NCBI GenBank assembly: GCA_022841825.1 | Contig: JALHQT010000001.1 | Location: forward strand, 248,001 to 312,000 | Direction: 5' to 3' | Length of the DNA: 64,000 bases | From: Anaerolineae bacterium | GTDB taxonomy: Bacteria > Chloroflexota > Anaerolineae > Aggregatilineales > Phototrophicaceae | In this document: positions 3,660 through 46,220 of the stretch, in pieces | Layout: each line of letters begins with the position of its first letter | Numbering within the stretch: position 1 is the first letter of the stretch | Position numbers and translations under genes: made by a program | The notes under the pieces: generated by a model | Database searches by the model: none | What the model saw: the letters and a program-made list of their open reading frames with translations, nothing else | What the model was told of the DNA's origin: nothing

Positions 3660-4849
3660 TGCCAGGGCGCGGCGAACTTACAGGTACCATCGTTGGGCAG
3701 TATGAGATTCAGGATCTGGTCGAAGATAACACGATCATCCAGACCTATCGTGCTGTCCAACGCAGCCTGGAACGGGAGGTGGCATTCCAGGTACTTAGCC
3801 CTTCCCATAGGACGGACCCGACCTGGGTGATGGCACTCAAATCGGGAGCACAGATAGCCGCGAGCTATCAGCATCCACACATCATCCCGATTATGGACAT
3901 GGGCAGGAATGCTGACGTTGACTATGTCGTCACGCGACTTCTGTTGGGGCGCACCTTGCGCACACACATCGAGAAGACGGGCGCAAAACCTGTTCAGGAA
4001 GCCGTGACGCTGGTGCGTCAAATCGCTGATGCGCTTGATTTCATTCATTCACACGGCGGCTATCATGGCGATCCCGCACCCGTCAACATCATCTTTGATG
4101 AATGGGGCAGCGCCTATATCGCCGACTTCTACCTGCAAGGATACCTGCGGGCGACAACACCCAATCAGGTTGCGGGTGTCAGACGATTTGTTGCATCGGA
4201 ACGGATGGCAGGGGAGCCACCGACAGCCATGAGCGACCAATTCGCATTGGCTGGCGTCGCCTATTTCGCCATCACGGGCAAATATCCCTGGGAGCGAGAC
4301 GCACCCGTGCGGGTATTCGACAATCTTGTGCCGCCTCAGGAACATCGGCTCGACATACCGTTGTCCGTCAACGCTGTGTTGATGCGCGCCTTCGCGTTCA
4401 ATCCCGCTGATCGTTATCCGACGACAGGGGAGTTTTCCCGTCAATTCGAACAGTCCTTAAGCAGTTCGCCGACGCATGTGTTCATTTCCTACAGCCGTCA
4501 GGACGTCGAGTACGTCACTGCGCTGCGCGCGTATCTTCAGGTCAACGGGTTGGAAATCTGGAGTGATCATCAGATTGAACACGGAGAACAGTGGTTCAAT
4601 CAGATCAACAACGCCATCAAGACGTGTGCAGCATTTCTCGTTGTCATGTCCCCCGAAGCAGAACAAAGCGAATGGGTCCAAAAGGAAGTGCTGCTGGCAA
4701 AGCGCTACAAGAAGCCAATCTTCCCCCTGCTTCTTCGCGGCGAGGAGTTCCCACTGTTGATCGATGTGCAGTTTGCGTCGGCTGTGGGAGGGATGCTGCC
4801 CGATCCGGACTTTTGCCGCCGCATCAAACGCGCCGTCTACGGTCGGTGA
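3659..4849 (+). CDS. Protein-kinase-like (probable pseudokinase) / TIR-domain fusion protein
   Basis: 396 aa. Residues about 12-265 follow a Hanks-type Ser/Thr kinase fold: the alphaC region, HGD at 136-138 with N143 in the catalytic-loop position, ADF at 155-157 for DFG, and the C-lobe segment SDQFALAGVAYFAITGKYPW. The ATP-lysine position reads VAFQ (Q44) and the Gly-rich loop lacks its glycines, so nucleotide binding is doubtful. Residues about 272-390 are a TIR domain (HVFISYSRQD; W339-x3-E343, where TIR NADases carry their catalytic Glu). There is no membrane segment. The ATG overlaps the carB TAA by one base (TAATG), implying translational coupling to carAB. The substrate and role are unknown; NAD-linked signalling or defence is an inference. 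Confidence 0.85.
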   Translation: MPGRGELTGTIVGQYEIQDLVEDNTIIQTYRAVQRSLEREVAFQVLSPSHRTDPTWVMALKSGAQIAASYQHPHIIPIMDMGRNADVDYVVTRLLLGRTLRTHIEKTGAKPVQEAVTLVRQIADALDFIHSHGGYHGDPAPVNIIFDEWGSAYIADFYLQGYLRATTPNQVAGVRRFVASERMAGEPPTAMSDQFALAGVAYFAITGKYPWERDAPVRVFDNLVPPQEHRLDIPLSVNAVLMRAFAFNPADRYPTTGEFSRQFEQSLSSSPTHVFISYSRQDVEYVTALRAYLQVNGLEIWSDHQIEHGEQWFNQINNAIKTCAAFLVVMSPEAEQSEWVQKEVLLAKRYKKPIFPLLLRGEEFPLLIDVQFASAVGGMLPDPDFCRRIKRAVYGR

Positions 4850-4876
4850 CGCGAGGGCTAGCCTTCGTGCTGCCCG

Positions 4877-6625
4877 TCACCCGTTCGCCTGCAAATCTGC
4901 CGGATGGTAATCATCCAGGATCGAGCCGCCGACGAATTCGCGCAGCAGCGACGTGTCCGGGATGAGATCGACCTGCTCGTCGCTCATCGGTGCGACCCAG
5001 CGCAGGAACGAGAGCATGCGATTCGCCTCGATATGCGCGGGCGTTCCAGGTTCAACTTGCAGGAGCAGCGGCTCTGCCAGTGGGCGCAGCGCTGCCAGCT
5101 CGTAGGCGAGCGCCGAATTGAACATGGCGTCCGCGTTTTCCTGGTAGGGGAAGATATTGCGCTTCTCACCCGCGCGCACACTCTCCCATCCATCGAGTGT
5201 GGTTGTGGCGCTGCGCCCGCGATGGGCGGCGTCTCGCACCATGCGGCGCAGCAGGCGCACGTCGGTCGTCGGTACGCGGTTGTGGCGGTCGATATTGAGC
5301 GCCGTGAGCGGCGAGATGTAAATGCGGAACAGTTGGCTCGGCGGCAGCGCATAGACGAGGCGCGGGTTCAGCCCATGAATACCCTCGATGATGACGATCT
5401 GATTGTTCATGAGCCGCGACTGTCTGCCAGGAAGACTTTTGCCCTTTACGAAATCGAATTTGGGTAATCGAACCTCTTCGCCTGCGATCAACGCTTTGAT
5501 CTGCGTGTTGAACAATGCCAGATCAACCGCTTCCAGCGCCTCAAAGTCATAGCTGCCATCGGGATGGCGCGGCGTGCGCTCGCGGTCTACGAAATAATTG
5601 TCGAGTTCCAGCGTGAAGGGGCGTAAGCCGTGCGCCAGCAGCTGGATGGCGAGGCGCTTGGCGAACGTCGTCTTGCCGCTCGAACTCGGACCCGCGATCA
5701 TGATGAGGCGCACGCCATCGCGCATGTGGCGTTCGGTGATTTCGGTCGCAATCGCGGCGATACGCTGTTCATGAAGCGCTTCCGCGACGAGGATCAATTC
5801 CTGCGTGTGCTCCGCGCGCACGATGCGGTTGAGCTGACCGATGTCCTCAACCCCCATCCTGCGCAACCATTCTTCCGCTTCCTGGAAAATCTGCTCCAGC
5901 TTGCCGCCGCTGATGAATTCACCCAGTGTGTCCAGTTGGTCACCCGTCGGATATTGCAGATAAAAGGCGTCCGGCGTGTGATGCAGCTTGAAGGTCCACA
6001 AGTAGCCTGCGGAGGGTACCATGTAACCGAAGTAATAATCGGAGTTTCCGCCGAGTGTGTAGAGTGTCAGGTTGTCGCGCAGGCGCGCCTCGAGCAGGCG
6101 CAGCTTGTCGGTGTCGCCGCGTTCGGCAAAGTAAGCGCGCGCTTCTTCCAGCGACACGATCTGCTTGGTGATAGGTCGGTTTTCCGCGACGATCTGGTGC
6201 ATTCGGGTCTCCAGCTTCGCCAGTTCCTCGCGCGTCAGTGGCTGCCGATTGGTGAGCGAGCAGTAGAAACCGCCGCCAGAGACAACATATCCCACATCGA
6301 TTTGTGTACCCGGGAATGTTTCCTCAAGCGCTGTCGTCAGCAGCAGCACGAGCGAGCGGCGATAGATACGCCTGCCATCGCTTTCGCTAAAGAGGACGGG
6401 TTGAAGCGTGCTGTCCTGGTTGATGGGATAGCTGAGTTCTCGTAGTTTTCCATTGAGGATGCCGCCCATCATCAGGCTTGGGAATGGCTGGATTGCTTCT
6501 TTCGCGCGCAGGAATTCCTCGATTGTCGTACCGATTCCGCCCTCCAGGATCACGTCATCCTGAAACGCTACGCGGACGGTGTCACGAGGTTCGGCTCGTG
6601 TGATGGGTATGGCGGAGTGGGTCAT
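4877..6625 (-). CDS. Uridine kinase-like nucleoside kinase with TGS and ThrRS-like N-terminal domains
   Basis: 582 aa. The C-terminal part (about 300-500) is a P-loop uridine kinase/phosphoribulokinase-like domain: Walker A AGPSSSGKTT at 311-320, then LELDNYFVDRERTPRHPDG and IVIIEGIHGLNP. The N-terminal 60 residues look like a TGS domain, and about 80-250 resembles the second additional domain of ThrRS (GGGFYCSL, ITKQIVSLEEARAYF). This architecture is known for a family of bacterial nucleoside kinases. The likely reaction is phosphorylation of a nucleoside to its 5'-monophosphate; the exact substrate cannot be read from sequence. The ATG at 6625 has GGAG seven bases upstream. It faces the carAB operon and is divergent from hpt. 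Confidence 0.85.
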   Translation of the reverse strand: MTHSAIPITRAEPRDTVRVAFQDDVILEGGIGTTIEEFLRAKEAIQPFPSLMMGGILNGKLRELSYPINQDSTLQPVLFSESDGRRIYRRSLVLLLTTALEETFPGTQIDVGYVVSGGGFYCSLTNRQPLTREELAKLETRMHQIVAENRPITKQIVSLEEARAYFAERGDTDKLRLLEARLRDNLTLYTLGGNSDYYFGYMVPSAGYLWTFKLHHTPDAFYLQYPTGDQLDTLGEFISGGKLEQIFQEAEEWLRRMGVEDIGQLNRIVRAEHTQELILVAEALHEQRIAAIATEITERHMRDGVRLIMIAGPSSSGKTTFAKRLAIQLLAHGLRPFTLELDNYFVDRERTPRHPDGSYDFEALEAVDLALFNTQIKALIAGEEVRLPKFDFVKGKSLPGRQSRLMNNQIVIIEGIHGLNPRLVYALPPSQLFRIYISPLTALNIDRHNRVPTTDVRLLRRMVRDAAHRGRSATTTLDGWESVRAGEKRNIFPYQENADAMFNSALAYELAALRPLAEPLLLQVEPGTPAHIEANRMLSFLRWVAPMSDEQVDLIPDTSLLREFVGGSILDDYHPADLQANG

Positions 6626-21043: not shown

Positions 21044-21113
21044 CGAGTCACTATTGCTTGTCCATGTTGCTATAGCCTTGGGTGATTGTGTTTCGTTAGG
21101 ATGGAGCGCTTGG

Positions 21114-22784
21114 ATGCCCCTGCCTTTGGATAAAACCCCGATGATCGAATCGAATGCGGCGACCCTGCAATCGGTATTACAGTTTGCGCTTCCCCTTGGG
21201 ACAAGCCTGATCGTCGGGTCACCCGAAGTCGAGATCACCTGGGCGGTGACAGTACGCGCCCAACCTCCGGCGTTCCCCGATATTTCTGGCGGCGAGCTGG
21301 CATTGGTTTCGATGGATGTGCTGCGCAGCTTTGACAGTAAAGCAACACTTGCGCATCTCATTGAAGTGTTGTCTAAAGAGGGTATTCATGCGGTTGCCTC
21401 ACAGGAGGATTTGTCGCCCGCAGCGATTGCGGCGGCGACCCAGTTCAACGTCGCGCTGCTGGCACTGCCTGATGACACCAACCTTGCGCGCGTCGAGCGC
21501 GCGGTAACGACGCTGATTGTCAACCAGAAGGCGCAAATGACACAGCGCGCGAGCGAAATCCAGCGGCAGTTGGTGCGCTTGGCGGCGGAGAATCGCGACA
21601 TCAACAGCCTGCTCCAGGTGATGGCGCGCGCGATGGCGAAGCCCGTCGCGGTTCATGATGACGCCGGGGTGACGACCGCCCAGGTCTACCCGAATGTCGC
21701 GCGCCGCCCGGCGACGCCAATTGCCGGAGGGCGGAGTGGGCTGCAATATGGCTCCTTTCAGAATTGGCTGGAGTCCAAAGATGCGCCGACGACCGAAGGT
21801 GTGATCCTCAGCAGCCCTCTCGGTTTCACAACCGTGCTCAAGGTCGAAAAGCGTATTGCAGGGTATCTGTCGTTGATCGACGCGCGCGAAACGCTTGACG
21901 AGTTTGATCGGCTGGTGCTTTCCTACGGCGCGGAGGTTTGCGCTATCGAAATCGCCAAGAACCGCGCGATCGCGCAGGCGGTCGAACAGACGCGCGGCGA
22001 TTGGGTGCAGATGTGGTTGAGCGGTACGCCGACCGACGACGATCTGATGCTGACCCGTGCGCAGCAGGCAGGATTTGATGCATCGGCGACCTATGTGGTC
22101 AGTGTGTTTCGCGCGATGACCGACAGCGGCACGGCACTGCCGATGGAAAACCTGCTGGCATTGGTGCGCGACGATATGGGGCGGCGGCAGGTTGCTGGGG
22201 CTGTGGGGCAGTACGTAGATGCGGTGGTTGCGCTTTATCCGCTGGAGAATGCGGCGCAGCTCCCGCGTGTACGGCGGAGCATTGACGAGGTGCGCGGGCA
22301 GCTTGCGGCGCGGACGCCCAGCGGGTTGGTGTCGTGCGGCATCAGCCGTCCGGCGATGGGGTTGTCGGCGCTGCGCGAGGCGTACCGTGAGGCGAAAGAT
22401 TCGTTAAGCATCGCGCATGAGCTGGGGGAACGCGAAGAAACGACTTTTTATGGCGACCTGAAGCTGTTCCAACTCCTGCTCGCGCTGAAAGAACGCAACC
22501 TCGACCAGATGCGTCGCTTCTACCGGGATACACTAGGGTCTCTGGTGGAGCATGACGACCGCAAACAGGGCGATTTGGTACGGACGCTGAACGGATTCTT
22601 TCATGCCAACGGCAACCTACAGAAAGCAGCCAGCGATTTGGATGTGCATCGCAATACGCTGGTTTACCGATTGGAGCGCATCCGCGAGCTGACGGGGTTC
22701 GACCTGGAGGACGCCGACAACCGCCTCATCCTGCATCTCGCGCTGAAGATACAGCGCGTGCTGGCGACGCTGCCGGAGATGTGA
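21114..22784 (+). CDS. PucR/CdaR-family transcriptional regulator (first of two)
   Basis: 556 aa from ATG 21114, with GGAG seven bases upstream (ATG 21141 is possible). The N-terminal PucR-type domain starts LQSVLQFALPLGTSLIVG and ends near VERAVTTLIV. A central GAF/GGDEF-like region of the CdaR type follows. The C-terminal helix-turn-helix carries the family signature HANGNLQKAASDLDVHRNTLVYRLERIRELTG (in pieces, residues about 500-532). Such proteins usually control nitrogen or catabolic genes in response to a small ligand. It converges on gltB, and a second member of the family lies on gltB's other side. Confidence 0.9.
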   Translation: MPLPLDKTPMIESNAATLQSVLQFALPLGTSLIVGSPEVEITWAVTVRAQPPAFPDISGGELALVSMDVLRSFDSKATLAHLIEVLSKEGIHAVASQEDLSPAAIAAATQFNVALLALPDDTNLARVERAVTTLIVNQKAQMTQRASEIQRQLVRLAAENRDINSLLQVMARAMAKPVAVHDDAGVTTAQVYPNVARRPATPIAGGRSGLQYGSFQNWLESKDAPTTEGVILSSPLGFTTVLKVEKRIAGYLSLIDARETLDEFDRLVLSYGAEVCAIEIAKNRAIAQAVEQTRGDWVQMWLSGTPTDDDLMLTRAQQAGFDASATYVVSVFRAMTDSGTALPMENLLALVRDDMGRRQVAGAVGQYVDAVVALYPLENAAQLPRVRRSIDEVRGQLAARTPSGLVSCGISRPAMGLSALREAYREAKDSLSIAHELGEREETTFYGDLKLFQLLLALKERNLDQMRRFYRDTLGSLVEHDDRKQGDLVRTLNGFFHANGNLQKAASDLDVHRNTLVYRLERIRELTGFDLEDADNRLILHLALKIQRVLATLPEM

Positions 22785-27789: not shown

Positions 27790-29436
27790 TTACTGGGGTG
27801 GCAGAAGGCGTCGAATTGCCAGCGCAAGGTGCAGCCCAAGGCGTATTTCCGGACGGTCGAGATCTATCTGGGCGATCTCGTTGATGCGGCTCATGCGATA
27901 GAGCAGGGTGTTGCGATGTACGATCAGCGCTTCTGCTGTCTGGCTGAGATTACCATGACATTCGAAAAAGGCTTCCAGAGTCTTGATCAAGTCGGCGTTC
28001 TGCTTGTGATCATAATCGAGCAGCGCGCCCAGCGTACGTTGACAGAAGTGCTGGAGTTTGTCGCGGTCGGTGAGGCTGATGATGAGCTGGTAGGCACCAA
28101 GGTCGCCGATGTAGAGGGGTTGTTCGCTGCCGAGGCGTGTTGCCAAGCCCAGTGCCTGTCGTCCTTCATCGTAGCTCCCCCTCCAGCCAGACACGTCCTG
28201 CGCAGGCTGCCCAACCCCGATTGAGATCTTCGCGCTGGGATACTGCTGATGCAGATCTGCGTTCACCATGCGCGCGAATTTCTTCGTTTGTTCCAGCGAG
28301 TCCTTTGAGTCTTTTGGCAGCCCCAAAAAGATGATCACTTCGCCTTCGCGTTCGTGCGTCCACACAAGGGTAGGCAGCGGGCTGCTTGCAACGAGCGCAT
28401 TGATCGTGGTCTCCAGTCGCCTAAGCGAGGGCGTTTTTTCTCCGCGCCACGCAACAATGATGGCAACGTGAGGTTGCGTCATGTCATGTTCGAGGCGCTC
28501 ACCCTGCTTCATCGCTTCCTGCGGCGTGACGTCACCGATCAGCACGCGGTCCAGAAACGTGCCTCGCAATCGCTTTTCGGTATCACTGATCGCCTTCGCT
28601 TTTGCCATCTCGATTGCGCAGGCAGCCGCGCCGTGTTCAGCGACGAGCTGGTCAATGTCATCCAGGTCGGTGTCACGTCCAATGATCGACAGATAGCCGC
28701 GTCCCATGTCCTTGCTGATAATCGGAGCGACAAACCGTGCCAGCCCCGGTGTTGGGAGCGATTGGATGATAACGGGGTTATCGATTTCGGCGACTTTTTG
28801 GCGATCCTGGAGTTCTACCGGGAGATTATCGAGTTTCTTGAGAAAAAGTTCGACATCCTCCCAATACGCAACGGACTGTGGCTGCAACTGCGTGCCGATC
28901 AGTTGCAGTCGCTTATCCTGGACGACGATGGCTTTGTTGGTCAGGCGTGCCATCGCATTAATGAGATCCTGGATGCCTTCATTGCGCAGGGATATTTGCG
29001 TGAGTTGGCGGTAGATTTGCGTTCCACGCCGCTCGATCTGCCCTTTTCGGTCGACCAGCAAACTGACAATCGCTTTTTCCACGACGCGGGCGCGCGTACT
29101 GGGCGGCAAAGCGAGCAGCGGCATGTTGAAGGCGGTTGCCTCGGCAATGATTGCGCTGTTTGGTGGTTCATTTAGTACCACTGCCGCAGCATCGAGATCG
29201 CATGCCCAGCGCAGCACATCGAGATCGCTGACCTGTCGCAGCCCGGTTTCCGGCGTTGCGATGATGATCATCTCGTTGGCTTGCAACGCCTTGGGCAGCG
29301 TACTGTTCTCCGGATAGATCACGGTCGCCCAGGTGACTGTCCGACTCAACAGCCCATTACCCGCGATGACTTTTGTTCCCAGCGGCAAGGCGAGCTTACG
29401 AACATCTTCAACAGTTACGTGGTCTGGTGCGTCCAT
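27790..29436 (-). CDS. PucR/CdaR-family transcriptional regulator (second of two)
   Basis: 548 aa. The N-terminal PucR domain (VEDVRKLALPLGTKVIAGNGLLSRTVTW, in pieces) runs to about residue 125, ending VEKAIVSLLVDRKGQIERRG. A central CdaR-type region follows. The C-terminal HTH has the family motif ECHGNLSQTAEALIVHRNTLLYRMSRINEI (split here). It is a clear paralogue of the gene at 21114. It is transcribed toward gltB with a 218-base gap containing inverted repeats, so gltB is the natural candidate target. The ligand is unknown. Confidence 0.9.
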   Translation of the reverse strand: MDAPDHVTVEDVRKLALPLGTKVIAGNGLLSRTVTWATVIYPENSTLPKALQANEMIIIATPETGLRQVSDLDVLRWACDLDAAAVVLNEPPNSAIIAEATAFNMPLLALPPSTRARVVEKAIVSLLVDRKGQIERRGTQIYRQLTQISLRNEGIQDLINAMARLTNKAIVVQDKRLQLIGTQLQPQSVAYWEDVELFLKKLDNLPVELQDRQKVAEIDNPVIIQSLPTPGLARFVAPIISKDMGRGYLSIIGRDTDLDDIDQLVAEHGAAACAIEMAKAKAISDTEKRLRGTFLDRVLIGDVTPQEAMKQGERLEHDMTQPHVAIIVAWRGEKTPSLRRLETTINALVASSPLPTLVWTHEREGEVIIFLGLPKDSKDSLEQTKKFARMVNADLHQQYPSAKISIGVGQPAQDVSGWRGSYDEGRQALGLATRLGSEQPLYIGDLGAYQLIISLTDRDKLQHFCQRTLGALLDYDHKQNADLIKTLEAFFECHGNLSQTAEALIVHRNTLLYRMSRINEIAQIDLDRPEIRLGLHLALAIRRLLPPQ

Positions 29437-31218: not shown

Positions 31219-31644
31219 TCACGGCTTCGATTTTTCTTCCAGCAGGCGGGCATGGCTGCCTTGCCAGAAGCTTTCTGAACGGGTGAACTTCGTGATCTTG
31301 ATGTCTGCGAATTTCGGCAGCAGTTTGATCATCAGGGGCGGTAGTTGATCCCAGGTTTCGCCGAGGATGAGCGCGTTCAATTGGTCCGCCATTTGCCCAG
31401 CCCAACCCCAGCGCATACGGAGTTCGTCCGCCTTCATCCAGTAGTCGCGCTTTTCCCAGGCAATGGCGGACTGGTCGATACCCGCATCGATTTCGCGCAG
31501 GCAATAGACGATAGCCGCTGCCATGTCTTTGGCGTCGCCGTCCAGTTCTGATTTCTGGCTCAGGTGGCGCAGAAGCTCTGCGCCGGTGCGCATGAGTTGA
31601 TTGCGCGTTTTTCCGGTGCTGTCCGGATTGATCACTCGTCCCAT
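31219..31644 (-). CDS. Unknown helical protein, third gene of a three-gene operon
   Basis: 141 aa from ATG 31644 with GGGGA five bases upstream (GTG 31662, overlapping the previous TAG, is an alternative). It is predominantly helical and charged (TRNQLMRTGAELLRHLSQKS; AIAWEKRDYWMKADELRMRW). There is no signal peptide or membrane segment. No known family was recognised. It is translated directly after the 146-aa unknown protein and so is expected to work with it. Confidence 0.6.
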   Translation of the reverse strand: MGRVINPDSTGKTRNQLMRTGAELLRHLSQKSELDGDAKDMAAAIVYCLREIDAGIDQSAIAWEKRDYWMKADELRMRWGWAGQMADQLNALILGETWDQLPPLMIKLLPKFADIKITKFTRSESFWQGSHARLLEEKSKP

Positions 31645-31661
31645 CGTGTCCCCTAATGGCA

Positions 31662-32102
31662 CTAAGACTGATACGGTCGGATACCTTTATAGACGCGGGT
31701 GCCCCCTATGGTTTTGAGAATGGTGGCTGCTGGTCGCGCCGTGCGTTCTTCCAGTTCATGCGCGGAAAGGGGCTGGTTTCCGTTAGATAAGAACACGCGG
31801 AAGATGCTGTCGATCAGTGACGTTTGCTGATTGATGAAGTTTGGGTCACGCGCGGCGATCTGGACGGCAAGCCCAAGTTCATCGACCTCCATCACTTCGC
31901 CGGTCACCGGGTCAATAAAATCCAGGGTCACGGATTCTGTCGCCTGTGAGAGCTTCTCGCGCTGTTCCGGCAGTAGGTGGCTAAGGATATAGATGCGAAG
32001 ATCTTCTTCGGTGTTCTTTTCCCACCAGGTGTAATCAATGTGGTACCTGGTGTCCAGCGTTGGTTTGACGAGTGCGCTGGGTTTACCTGAGGGTGGTTGC
32101 AT
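31662..32102 (-). CDS. Unknown protein with C-terminal HTH-like segment, second gene of the operon
   Basis: 146 aa. The middle part contains a segment with LDFIDPVTGEVMEVDELGLAV. The end (PLSAHELEERTARPAATILK, then GGTRVYKGIRP) looks like a small winged helix-turn-helix. It starts 11 bases after the 523-aa protein and is followed at once by the 141-aa gene. No homologue could be named. Confidence 0.6.
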   Translation of the reverse strand: MQPPSGKPSALVKPTLDTRYHIDYTWWEKNTEEDLRIYILSHLLPEQREKLSQATESVTLDFIDPVTGEVMEVDELGLAVQIAARDPNFINQQTSLIDSIFRVFLSNGNQPLSAHELEERTARPAATILKTIGGTRVYKGIRPYQS

Positions 32103-32113
32103 TGGGCGCGTTC

Positions 32114-33685
32114 CTATTTCTCAGCCAGCTTCCAATAGAGATTGCCAACATACTCAAAGTCCGGGTTGCTAATCAGCGTTGCCAGAACCGGACCTGGTGG
32201 GCAGCGTCGGAGGACGTTGACCGTGCTGTATATCGTCCTGGCGTGGACGGTCGCCTGCGGGGAGAATCGCCCCATTTCAGTCAGGATGTTCCGGATGATC
32301 GCGGCGAGCGGTCGGCGCTGCGTGCGCGCCTGGTCGGCAAGCGCATCCACGCCACCAATATCGTCGGTGCCAAGGATCATGAGTGAATCGTATTCGGCGC
32401 CAATCGAGCGCTTCTGTTCCTCGAACGCCATCAGGTTGTTCTTGGGAGAGACGAGTTTGACATACTCGGTACGCGGACGGTAGGCGTTGAAGTCGATGAT
32501 GATCCTGCCGGGGTCTTCATCCTGATGGACGGTGATATACGCGCCAATCGGCAGCTTGTGTTTGCGGTAGAAGCGCCCGACACCGAAGACATAACGATCT
32601 TCGCGCACAACCCATCCGACCGATTCTTCGCCATCCATGCCATCTACCAACGTCACATTGACGCGCGGGGCACGCAGCGCAGTTGGGAAGATGTGGCGCA
32701 TCTTGGCATTAAGGGGGAATGTTGCCATGCGGCGGTGAGGATATAGCAGGGTAATCGTCGCCGACGTAATCTCTTCGTCTTCGTCAATCGTGATTGGGGA
32801 ATGCTCATCGTCCAATTCTTCTTCGAGCGTAAGCATTTCCTGAGTCAGCAAGGATGGGTCATAGTCAATGGGCGTATATTGAAGGACCGCCGGAGTTGAG
32901 CGGACTTCTGGCGGTTCCATACGTGTCAGGAACCACAAGACCCGCCCGGTTGGACCCACTTCATCAAAGCGGTTGTCTTTGCTGAGGGCATGGTTCATGC
33001 TGAAAACCTGAAGCGATGGTGGCGCATCGCCCAACCCACCAACCTGCTCCAGGATTTCGTCGGTTGTCATGGGTCCGCCCTCATCAAGATCGAGGATGGC
33101 TTCTGCGAGATTGAGGTGTCCGATATTCACATCCAGTATCAGACTGCGCGGAAACCATTTGCCGGCAATTGGCACAATTTCCTGGTTGGCTTCTAAGCGC
33201 TTGCGCAGTTCGTCGAGAATGCGACCCTTATCGCTTGCCAGCGCCGCATTCGGGTCGATTTCGACCTGACCGGGCATCAATACCGTGCTCACGTCCAGTT
33301 CGCTTAAGGCATGGGGCGTCTTGAGTTCGGCGGCGAAACTGCGTTCCCGCTTTGGATCGTCAAACTGGACGGTGATCACGCGGAAGCTGCCATACTCCGG
33401 ATTGTTGCCGTCGCGAATCCTGATCACGGGTGCAACATCATTGTTGCTGTTTGTGAACATCAACTGATCGCCGACGTTGTAGGCATCACAGGGACGGTAC
33501 ACACTTACTTTCGCATAGCGCTCGCGGATCTGGTCTGCATCTACGCGCAAGCGATTTTCGATCAGGGCGAGGGCGAGTTCCTTGAGGCTGAGAGGTGTTT
33601 CCCGTTCCAAGAGCAGATTGGTCAGGTAGTCCAAATCATCGTCCGTGATGCGTAATTTTCCTGCCCATATCTGGCTATGGCTCAA
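32114..33685 (-). CDS. Large unknown protein with several winged-helix-like segments, first gene of the operon
   Basis: 523 aa from TTG 33685, which has GGAG eight bases upstream; no ATG fits. Three segments look like winged-helix or HARE-HTH units: residues about 13-70 (TPLSLKELALALIENRLR), about 210-265 (GPMTTDEILEQVGG...GPTGRVLWFL) and the C-terminus (RRPLAAIIRNILTEMGRFSP...YVGNLYWKLAEK). Between them lies an acidic linker (EEELDDEHSPITIDEDEE) and a beta-rich module (about 310-410). This suggests a DNA-binding or nucleoprotein role, by inference. A clear sigma-70-type promoter lies upstream. Confidence 0.65.
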   Translation of the reverse strand: MSHSQIWAGKLRITDDDLDYLTNLLLERETPLSLKELALALIENRLRVDADQIRERYAKVSVYRPCDAYNVGDQLMFTNSNNDVAPVIRIRDGNNPEYGSFRVITVQFDDPKRERSFAAELKTPHALSELDVSTVLMPGQVEIDPNAALASDKGRILDELRKRLEANQEIVPIAGKWFPRSLILDVNIGHLNLAEAILDLDEGGPMTTDEILEQVGGLGDAPPSLQVFSMNHALSKDNRFDEVGPTGRVLWFLTRMEPPEVRSTPAVLQYTPIDYDPSLLTQEMLTLEEELDDEHSPITIDEDEEITSATITLLYPHRRMATFPLNAKMRHIFPTALRAPRVNVTLVDGMDGEESVGWVVREDRYVFGVGRFYRKHKLPIGAYITVHQDEDPGRIIIDFNAYRPRTEYVKLVSPKNNLMAFEEQKRSIGAEYDSLMILGTDDIGGVDALADQARTQRRPLAAIIRNILTEMGRFSPQATVHARTIYSTVNVLRRCPPGPVLATLISNPDFEYVGNLYWKLAEK

Positions 33686-33733
33686 TGTTTGGCTCCGTAT
33701 GGTGAAGATTCGTTCCGTTGAATATCGATTGAC

Positions 33734-33763
33734 AGTATAGCGGAGTGGACAGAAGCTTTGCAA
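33734..33763 (-). promoter_or_regulatory. Sigma-70-type promoter of the three-gene unknown operon
   Basis: On the minus strand: TTGCAA (33763-33758), an 18-base spacer, then TATACT (33739-33734). The expected start of transcription is near 33727, about 40 bases before the TTG start. It is divergent from the rpmH promoter. Confidence 0.65.
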
Positions 33764-33771
33764 GCGTCGGG

Positions 33772-33801
33772 TTGACCGCTGCTGTGACCGTCGTTTATAC
33801 T
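33772..33801 (+). promoter_or_regulatory. Sigma-70-type promoter of the rpmH-rnpA-yidD-yidC-jag cluster
   Basis: TTGACC (33772-33777), an 18-base spacer, then TATACT (33796-33801), about 41 bases before the rpmH ATG. This is the best promoter seen in the window. Confidence 0.75.
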
Positions 33802-33842: not shown

Positions 33843-34022
33843 ATGTCTACCAAGCGTACCTATCAGCCCAAAATCCGCCGCCGTCAGCGCGTGCATGGCT
33901 TTCGTTCACGCATGTCGACGCGTACCGGGCGCAAGGTCTTGAAGCTGCGCCGTCAGCGTGGTCGTCACGAACTGACCGTGCAGATGCGTCACGTCAAGCG
34001 CATTAACTGGAAGTCGCACTAA
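33843..34022 (+). CDS. rpmH: 50S ribosomal protein L34
   Basis: 59 aa, highly basic. The L34 signature is complete: [20 protein letters not shown], then [10 protein letters not shown], with the RR..GR..L run after it. The C-terminal extension ([17 protein letters not shown]) makes it slightly longer than the usual 44-47 aa. AAGGA precedes the ATG. It heads the conserved rpmH-rnpA-yidD-yidC-jag order. Confidence 0.95.
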
Positions 34023-44198: not shown

Positions 44199-46220
44199 TT
44201 ACAACTCCACTAAATCCAGGTCACCCATCGGGTCGCGCAGCGCCATCACGCCCTTGAGTTCGACCATCTGATCACGCAGCATCGCCGCTTTCTCAAACTC
44301 CAGCGTCTTTGCCGCGCGCTTCATCTCCGCCTCAAGCTCCTTGATCATCTTATGCAGCTCTTCCTTTGGCAGCGTGTTGAGATCGACTTCGCCCGTTGGC
44401 AGCTTTTGCTCTTCGCTGACCATCGACTTGACGCGGTCGGTGAGATCGCGCACCTGCTTGACGATAGTGGTCGGCGTGATTCCTCGCTCTTCATTGTGGG
44501 CATGTTGTATGGCACGACGGCGCTCGGTTTCCGCTATCGCGCGCTCCATTGACGGTGTCATTTTGTCGGCGTACAGGATGACCTTCCCCTCGATGTGACG
44601 CGCGGCGCGTCCAATCGTCTGAATGAGCGCCTGCTCGGAGCGCAGGAAGCCTTCTTTGTCCGCATCAAGAATGATCGCCAGCGAAACCTCCGGCAGGTCG
44701 ATGCCTTCGCGCAGGAGATTGATCCCGACGATGACATCGTAGACACCGAGGCGCAGGTCGCGCAGAATCTCGACGCGCTCCAGCGTCTCGACTTCCGCGT
44801 GCAGATACTGCGCTTTGATGCCGATTTCGTTGATGTAGCCCGCCAGCTCTTCCGCCATGCGCTGCGTGAGCGTGGTGACGAGCGCGCGCTGCCCCTTCTG
44901 CACTCGCGCTGCGATTTCCTGGAGCAGATCGTCGATCTGACCCTTGGTGGGACGCACGAGGACTTCGGGGTCGAGGATACCTGTTGGGCGGATGACCTGT
45001 TGGACGGTGCGGTCGCTAATTTCGCGCTCGTACGGTCCCGGCGTTGCGGAGGTGTAGACGACCTGGTTCGTCCGCTCCTGGAATTCCTCGAACTTGAGCG
45101 GGCGGTTGTCCATCGCGCTTGGCAGGCGGAAGCCATAGTCCACCAACGTTTGCTTGCGCGTGCGATCACCGTTGTACATGCCACGCACCTGCGGGATGGT
45201 CATGTGGCTCTCGTCGATGATCAGCAGGTAGTCCTTCGGGAAGTAGTCGAGCAGCGACGACGGCGGGCTGCCCGCCGGGCGCTGGTCGAGATGACGCGAG
45301 TAGTTTTCAATGCCGCTGGTGAAGCCCATCTCGCGCAGCATCTCCAGATCATAGTGCGTTCGCTGCTCCAGACGCTGTGCTTCGACGAGTTTGCCTTCGG
45401 ACTTGAAGAACCTCACCTGTTCTTCCAACTCCGCCTCGATGTCACGGATCGCCTTGTGCAGCTTGTCCTGATCTGCCATGAACTGCGCAGCCGGGAACAC
45501 GACGACAACCTCCTGCTGTGACAGGAGTTCGCCCGTGAGTGGGTCGAACTGGGTAATCCGCTCGATCTCGTCTCCAAAGAGTGTGACACGGTAGGCGGCT
45601 TCCTCATAGGGCGGAAAGACTTCTAACACGTCACCCCGAGCGCGGAAGCTGCCTTTTCCTAGGTCCATGTCGCTGCGGGTGTACTGGATGCGAACCAGGT
45701 CACGTAGAACACTTTCGCGCTGAATGCTCGATCCTTTGCGAAACTCGACTGTCGAGCTTCCCCAGGTTTCCGGATCGCCCGTGCCGTAGATGCAGGAGAC
45801 CGAGGCTACGATCAGCACATCACGGCGTGACAGGAGTGCTGCTTTAGCGGCGATGCGCAGACGCTCGATTTGCTCGTTGATGTCCGTCTGCTTCTCGATG
45901 AAGAGGTCGTAACGCGGTACGTAGGACTCTGGCTGATAGTAATCGTAGTAGCTGACGTAGTACTCGACGGCGTTGCGTGGGAAGAACTCCTTAAACTCGG
46001 CGTAGAGCTGCGCTGCCAGTGTCTTGTTGTGTGCCATGACGAGGGTAGGGCGCTGAACCTGTTCGACCACCCACGCCATGCTAGCGGTCTTGCCCGTGCC
46101 TGTTGCGCCGAGCAGCGTCTGATGCTTGAGACCTTTTTCGATCCCGTCTACCAACCCAAAGATGGCGGTGGGCTGGTCACCGGTGGGCTTGAACTCTGAG
46201 ACTACTTCAAATCGTGGCAT
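44199..46220 (-). CDS. uvrB: Excinuclease ABC subunit B
   Basis: 673 aa, standard length. UvrB loads onto damaged DNA in nucleotide excision repair. Walker A is [13 protein letters not shown], the beta-hairpin segment is [17 protein letters not shown], helicase motifs include YTSATPG and QTIGRAARH, and the C-terminal UVR motif (about 620-655) contains [15 protein letters not shown] for contact with UvrC. Monocistronic on the minus strand; AAGGCG precedes ATG 46220. Confidence 0.98.

Follow-up and report, generated by a model that had tools for sequence, protein, structure and literature searches.

What is the function of a tight cluster of three genes that no family model recognises? The question is raised by genes A, B and C on the minus strand of a 64,000-nt window from an Anaerolineae bacterium (assembly GCA_022841825.1, contig JALHQT010000001.1, positions 248,001 to 312,000; "the window" is this whole stretch, with coordinates counted from its first letter). 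Computational analysis revealed that genes A and B are the conserved unit and that residue 115 of protein A and residue 69 of protein B are specifically coupled. The reading that we favour, and consider rather probable, is that A and B constitute a chromosomal DNA-binding complex of Anaerolineae, clasped by a Tudor domain of A and a beta hairpin of B through Arg115 and Glu69. The three genes are as follows.

33685..32114, minus strand: gene A, open reading frame (ORF) of 523 aa with a TTG start, predicted multi-domain protein (model mean pLDDT 89.8)
32102..31662, minus strand: gene B, ORF of 146 aa directly downstream of A
31644..31219, minus strand: gene C, ORF of 141 aa, in the same operon in the window, outside the conserved unit

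Genes A and B are the conserved unit

The named loci analysed are the best 80 of 484 relatives found, and counts refer to loci with room on the contig. Gene A was present in 59 of 61 genomes, its own included, and in 37 of the 38 listed class genomes of a phylum sample (n = 301) sorted by kinship, whose 238 unlisted rows were assumed to lie outside the window's class. Gene B lay directly after A in all named loci with room (78/78). A further 80 loci of the class were drawn from the match list of a search with a diverged A paralogue (described below), places already in the set or near a contig end being skipped; B followed A in 79 of them, and the sole miss (L339) lies at a contig end. All 219 distinct A-B pairs are encoded on the same strand, with a median of 32 nt from the stop of A to the matched start of B. 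This conservation across genomes supports that A and B are real genes.

Of 75 named loci that leave room for it, 47 have gene C after the pair; C was found in 42 of 120 class genomes, and rpmH, which faces A across the promoter gap in the window, did so in 40 of 73 loci. As B stands beside A nearly always whereas C and rpmH are patchy, the conserved unit is genes A and B; the three-gene operon, regarded as the unit in the original prediction, is a local arrangement. C was also rejected as a core partner because it had no common neighbour in the four loci where the ORF list showed C away from A-B (eight were fetched). Scattering of the genes among relatives, or folds lacking any DNA-binding element, had been named beforehand as evidence against a joint function: A and B stay together and have predicted DNA-binding folds, whereas C scatters. 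The original prediction had further suggested a possible chromosome- or transcription-associated complex from the gap shared with rpmH. A DNA-associated nature is likely, but since rpmH lies opposite A in only 40 of 73 loci, the shared gap says little on function, and the adjacency was rejected as functional evidence.

In the phylum sample, the A profile matched 74 of the 301 genomes, 37 of them outside the class and there within profile positions 132-500, the Tudor part not being covered; the B profile matched 73, of which 36 lie outside the class. Only one genome outside the class (G298) was common to the two sets, with a weak B match (E 7e-4). Beyond the class, the A and B parts come apart. 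One genome of family f11 and one of f13 (L164 and L165) have short A frames, of 268 and 266 aa, which end after the second winged helix and lack the B3-like and C-terminal parts; B is directly next, suggesting that the Tudor half and B are kept there without the B3 part. One locus (L086) is labelled Pleurocapsa minor, a cyanobacterium, yet A, B, C, rpmH and PFK all matched as in the window's group; the bin, or the name given to it, may be mistaken.

Predicted architecture of protein A

In agreement with their earlier description as unrecognised, A, B and C matched no Pfam family at E up to 1, no NCBIfam family (B had a single match at E = 0.05, far below its cut-off) and no PADLOC model, and the window's A had zero Pfam matches even at E up to 10. 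Searches of PDB sequences with the profiles of A, B and C gave chance-level matches or none. No viral relatives were found: nothing matched A in a phage collection at E up to 0.01, and a BFVD fold search had no match at E up to 0.001. The model alignments, thinned by hand, used 66 of the 80 loci for A and 62 of the 80 for B. Protein A is predicted to consist, in order, of a winged helix, a Tudor domain, a second winged helix, an acidic linker, a B3-like barrel and a third winged helix.

33515..33685, minus strand: A residues 1-57, N-terminal winged-helix-like part (model helices 3-9, 15-28 and 34-57; putative fold name, barely covered by the fold search)
33308..33514, minus strand: A residues 58-126, predicted PcrA/UvrD-type Tudor, SH3-like (model strands; hhalign)
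33341..33343, minus strand: A Arg115 codon, covarying with B Glu69
32900..33280, minus strand: A residues 136-262, predicted second winged helix and preceding helices (VIA matches; matched again in relatives of other classes)
32774..32842, minus strand: A residues 282-304, acidic linker (sequence, alignment)
32483..32773, minus strand: A residues 305-401, predicted B3-like pseudobarrel (VIA and hhalign)
32117..32365, minus strand: A residues 441-523, C-terminal winged-helix-like part (model helices and hairpin; putative fold name)

The several winged-helix segments and the acidic linker proposed for A from its letters thus reappear in the model (about 1-57, 136-262 and 441-523, and 282-304). 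The "beta-rich module" of that proposal is indeed rich in beta strands, but consists of two predicted modules, the Tudor and the B3-like barrel. Residues 185-264 matched the ZBP1 Zalpha domain (VIA Z 8.4) and Staphylococcus aureus RNA polymerase (RNAP) delta (Z 7.6), where a Z under 8 may reflect only a common arrangement of elements; the delta-like score is equalled by many other winged helices. Membership of the HARE-HTH family by sequence was rejected, as PF05066 matched in 0 of 15 genomes of the genus and the profile comparison was not significant; among 23 B members, one matched PF05066 at E 0.022. The winged helices of A and B are weakly alike, with hhalign values of up to 56.6% over 32 columns.

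The Tudor assignment is based on profile comparison. A residues 56-126 matched the UvrD Tudor of the same genus (hhalign probability 76.3, E 2.2e-5, 51 columns), and the other profiles of A, B and C reached at most 1.6. A Tudor of the CarD/Mfd type was rejected, with an hhalign value of 0.1 to the CarD/Mfd profile (UvrD against CarD itself gave 8.9). PF21196 (PcrA_UvrD_tudor) had one match in the window's own genome, which lies elsewhere (G000:C5), and left the window's A unmatched. Position 115 of A, basic (R or K) in 198 of 218 pairs, corresponds to the position of PcrA K712/K727; the PcrA lysine is taken here to be the K of GxKRL. By reading of the alignment, the position of PcrA H681 is that of F77 of A (F in 215 of 219), and that of W684 falls in the variable stretch behind it.

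The closest VIA match of A residues 305-401 was plant ARF1 (Z 10.4, rmsd 2.5, 95 residues aligned). The list was headed by 16 plant B3 rows (Z 9.4-10.4), followed by LlaJI.R1 (9.3), pointing to the pseudobarrel fold; BfiI and NgoAVII stood lower, at Z 6.6-7.9. Because Foldseek was not significant, the B3 likeness was checked by profile comparison. With six plant B3 sequences from the PDB, hhalign gave 80.4% for the A domain, the register agreeing with that of the structure match; two control profiles reached 2.0% and 0.4%. The Pfam B3 model (PF02362) had no match in 22 class members at E up to 10. The consensus PHRRxGTLP of the B3-like N-arm is strongly conserved, the window having Ala for Gly.

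The predicted hairpin of protein B

31881..31928, minus strand: B residues 59-74, predicted beta hairpin with I-D-P-V-T-G-E-V (model strands 59-63 and 70-74; motif of PMC8318588; conservation)
31896..31898, minus strand: B Glu69 codon, covarying with A Arg115
31665..31832, minus strand: B residues 91-146, predicted C-terminal winged helix (model; weak Pfam matches)

According to PMC8318588, RpoB and UvrB carry a hairpin motif, [VIL]-D-x-x-T-G-E-[VIL]-[VILT], to which the PcrA Tudor binds; mutation of the motif Glu severely weakens this binding, and a docked model pairs PcrA K727 with UvrB E233. In the model of B, which is less good than that of A (pLDDT 79.6), T67-G68-E69 lie at the predicted hairpin tip. 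Position 69 is E in 141 of 150 class rows, and G68 is Ala in 65 of them. Among 31 aligned rows of B homologues from other classes, where this Tudor-bearing A was not found, position 69 is acidic (E or D) in 10 and basic (R or K) in 15; some of these rows are poorly aligned. The B profile had a weak UvrB match in the PDB (E 0.092), of which the lower-scoring stretch of two is the UvrB interaction-motif hairpin. The HTH-like end described for B in the original prediction corresponds to the predicted C-terminal winged helix: at Pfam E up to 10, 7 of 23 B members matched HTH_20 (best 0.0023) and 6 matched WH_GDS1 (best 0.00022).

The window also contains uvrB (44199-46220, minus strand), which carries FDPLTGELL, like the PcrA-binding hairpin motif. 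In addition, residues 44, 47, 82 and 83 of B (window 31854-31973) are Cys or His at all four positions in 85 of 219 sequences and are lost in the window's B; in 6 of 8 distant homologues, Cys-x-x-Cys is followed further on by another Cys, resembling a zinc ribbon. These columns dominate the top raw couplings, with A residues such as 372, 435 and 516, and such pairs look like clade effects.

A Arg115 and B Glu69 are coupled

As the Tudor of A resembles that of PcrA and the hairpin of B the helicase interaction motif, a contact between Arg115 and Glu69 was predicted, Arg115 being aligned with the PcrA Tudor Lys that is set against the motif Glu. The Tudor-hairpin idea came first and the pair 115/69 was fixed from the alignments, both before pairs were counted. 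Removal of duplicates left 219 pairs, of which one, a gapped row, was omitted, giving 218.

The first 141 distinct pairs comprised 128 basic/acidic, 2 basic/non-acidic, 6 non-basic/acidic and 5 with neither charge (p = 2e-5). The fresh loci, chosen irrespective of residues 115 and 69, yielded 79 with B, 78 distinct and 77 ungapped, and repeated the correlation (65, 3, 2 and 7 in the same order; p = 1.7e-6); all 218 pairs together gave 193, 5, 8 and 12 (p = 3.7e-11). B69 is thus non-acidic in 12 of 20 pairs with a non-basic A115, against 5 of 198 with a basic one. A115 and B69 are also mutual best partners (132 and 508 columns), at 0.202 compared with 0.081 and 0.076 for the runners-up. On a tree built without columns A115 and B69, the base was lost 14 times and the acid 13 times, 8 times on the same branch (null mean 0.89, maximum 6 in 20000 draws), with 6 of the 14 and 5 of the 13 losses occurring alone. 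The joint-loss share of 0.42 is the highest among 2496 similarly variable column pairs, the next being 0.25. These computations show a specific coupling of A115 and B69.

A putative DNA-binding complex and its alternatives

The coevolution of A and B suggests that the two proteins bind each other physically. They would form a stable two-protein complex of DNA-binding modules acting on the chromosome, in which the Tudor of A would grip the hairpin of B with Arg115 pairing with Glu69, as the PcrA/UvrD Tudor does with RNAP beta and UvrB. DNA may be held at several places, by the winged helices of both proteins and by the B3-like barrel of A. A general chromosome- or transcription-associated factor is the most likely role of A-B, given its occurrence in nearly all of the class, its predicted DNA-binding folds and the type of its Tudor; the link to transcription now draws on the type of the Tudor module.

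Several observations weigh against this reading. DNA binding by A and B is suggested by predicted folds only, and the fold of B had no structure match at Z 5 or more. For A, the best Foldseek E was 0.065, the B3 hhalign value falls to 27.3% with the whole-A profile, the B3-like C-arm looks short, and PDB searches with the B3 or Tudor sub-profile found no B3 or Tudor protein. The positions of PcrA H681 and W684, which belong to its RNAP-binding face, are not kept in A. The first eight positions of the hairpin motif are strictly matched in 51 of 122 distinct class B sequences (106 of 122 with the relaxed pattern [VIL][DN]xx[TS][GA]E[VIL]), the ninth is rarely matched, and the motif is unspecific, with 19 DNA-pattern sites in the genome against 4 in the reversed control, many in unrelated proteins. 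As to the coupling, the pair ranks 47 of 67056 by raw coupling, and mutual-best status is not rare by itself, as 67 such pairs exist. By Fisher's test alone it is third of the 2496; the two pairs ahead share one and no loss branches and so look like clade effects. An independent-pairs sign test is borderline (median p = 0.039, range 0.039-0.070) and gave 0.25 on the first, smaller set.

Compatible with the DNA-binding complex, though unlikely, is the possibility that the Tudor of A also binds RNAP beta or UvrB, A-B being a helicase-free competitor of PcrA in which the hairpin of B fills the idle Tudor. A shares the Tudor type and the basic residue of PcrA, and the UvrB of this genome has a motif of the matching kind, FDPLTGELL; the coupling, however, marks B as the main partner of the A Tudor, and A differs from PcrA at the positions aligned with H681 and W684. 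A related speculation to which we give a similarly small chance is that the PcrA clasp has been reused without a helicase, in a DNA-anchored switch competing with PcrA at stalled transcription or repair sites. The B hairpin would keep the A Tudor closed, and the Tudor could open onto RNAP or UvrB.

It is less probable again that B acts on the PcrA/UvrD helicase as a decoy or adaptor, its hairpin binding the helicase Tudor and A binding elsewhere. The hairpin resembles the motif of known PcrA partners, and the genome encodes both a PcrA/UvrD Tudor protein and a UvrB with the same motif. However, loss of Glu69 follows loss of Arg115 on the 8 shared branches, which a sole contact with PcrA would not produce.

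Two further alternatives appear slightly more doubtful. In the first, the A115-B69 correlation would arise from common descent, or from constraint having loosened in a small number of lineages, in keeping with the borderline sign test and the lone charge losses; the repetition in fresh pairs and the top joint-loss share among matched column pairs argue against it. In the second, the folds would bind RNA, as SelB-like winged helices and KOW-like Tudor domains do, and A-B would act on RNA or ribosomes. The winged-helix matches include SelB (Z 7.5), Egalitarian-RNA and RNase R rows, the Tudor part has eIF5A rows, and rpmH is a neighbour. Against this, the B3 fold binds DNA in its known members, and the rpmH neighbour is as patchy as described above. 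Finally, a restriction- or defence-type system with a B3-like recognition domain is very improbable and was rejected: B3-like domains do occur in bacterial restriction enzymes, in some cases alongside helicase-like partners (PMC4267653), and a helicase gene precedes one diverged A paralogue, but this is a single case, A, B and C had no nuclease, methyltransferase or PADLOC match (Pfam, PADLOC), and the pair is near-universal and mostly single-copy.

Promoters, gene C, a helicase-linked paralogue and other genes of the window

33763..33734, minus strand: sigma-70-like promoter of the A-B-C operon, TTGCAA-N18-TATACT (consensus match only)
33772..33801, plus strand: sigma-70-like promoter of rpmH, TTGACC-N18-TATACT (consensus match only)
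33843..34022, plus strand: rpmH, its promoter back to back with the operon promoter

With intergenic gaps of 11 nt (A-B) and 17 nt (B-C) and the hexamers in place, the three ORFs are packed behind one putative promoter, as had been described. A promoter scan picked out 2 promoter-like sites, compared with 1.7 on average in shuffled sequence; as the hexamers alone are not above chance, placement is the sole support for both promoters. Gene C represents an orphan family, patchily distributed in the class, whose N-terminus is basic and strongly conserved; it adjoins A-B in the window's relatives and stands elsewhere in other genomes.

At L170 (G040:C305, 11001..6340 and 6446..4617, minus strand), a helicase gene is immediately followed by a full-length but diverged paralogue of A. 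The paralogue is 22% identical to the window's A, and the same genome also has an ordinary A copy. The helicase, of at least 1.5 kaa, combines XPD/DinG-type and RecQ parts, and a coiled-coil protein comes after the paralogue; no PADLOC model matched the paralogue. The arrangement fits a helicase link, as a single case. With the paralogue as query, 211 of 249 class genomes matched, and the 80 loci fetched were ordinary A copies, 79 with B beside them. Of ten genomes with two matches, eight had one gene in two pieces, G040 had two genes and G383 a second, weak place.

Elsewhere in the window, PucR-like regulators are encoded at 21054-22784 (plus strand) and 27790-29436 (minus strand), with HTH_30 and GGDEF_2 over the cut-off and PucR just under it. 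Between them lies a very long ORF, glutamate synthase-like by reading of its sequence.

Comparison with known systems

No description of the A-B pair or of such a B3-like protein was found in the open-licence literature searched, mostly abstracts. For an uncharacterised pair kept in nearly all sampled members of the class, a domain architecture and a contact open to testing are now predicted.

Among known systems, HARE-HTH proteins and RNAP delta may share with A the predicted winged-helix fold at residues 185-264 (Z 7.6), with an acidic stretch behind it; they differ in that A has no PF05066 match (15 genus genomes) and no significant profile match. The B3 pseudobarrel of plant ARF, VAL1 and RAV1 and of the LlaJI, BfiI and NgoAVII enzymes has the same predicted fold, with an in-register profile match. 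In contrast to these systems, A is undetected by Pfam models, has a short C-arm, has no nuclease domain that was found, and is encoded by a class-wide chromosomal gene. In bacteria, B3-like domains are known from restriction enzymes; the prediction of one in a widely conserved chromosomal protein has a bearing on the origin of the plant B3 transcription-factor domain.

The closest parallel to the putative clasp is the PcrA/UvrD Tudor and its partner hairpin, the helicase interaction motif of RpoB and UvrB (PMC8318588 and PMC5397179). A shares with this system the basic Tudor residue and B the T-G-E hairpin tip with its conserved Glu, suggesting that the Tudor-hairpin code of PcrA-RNAP and PcrA-UvrB may serve as a docking module for other DNA-binding complexes. 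The A-B pair differs from that system in the frequent Ala at G68 of B and in the A residues at the H681 and W684 positions. Moreover, A has no helicase part, and its partner B is its own operon mate.

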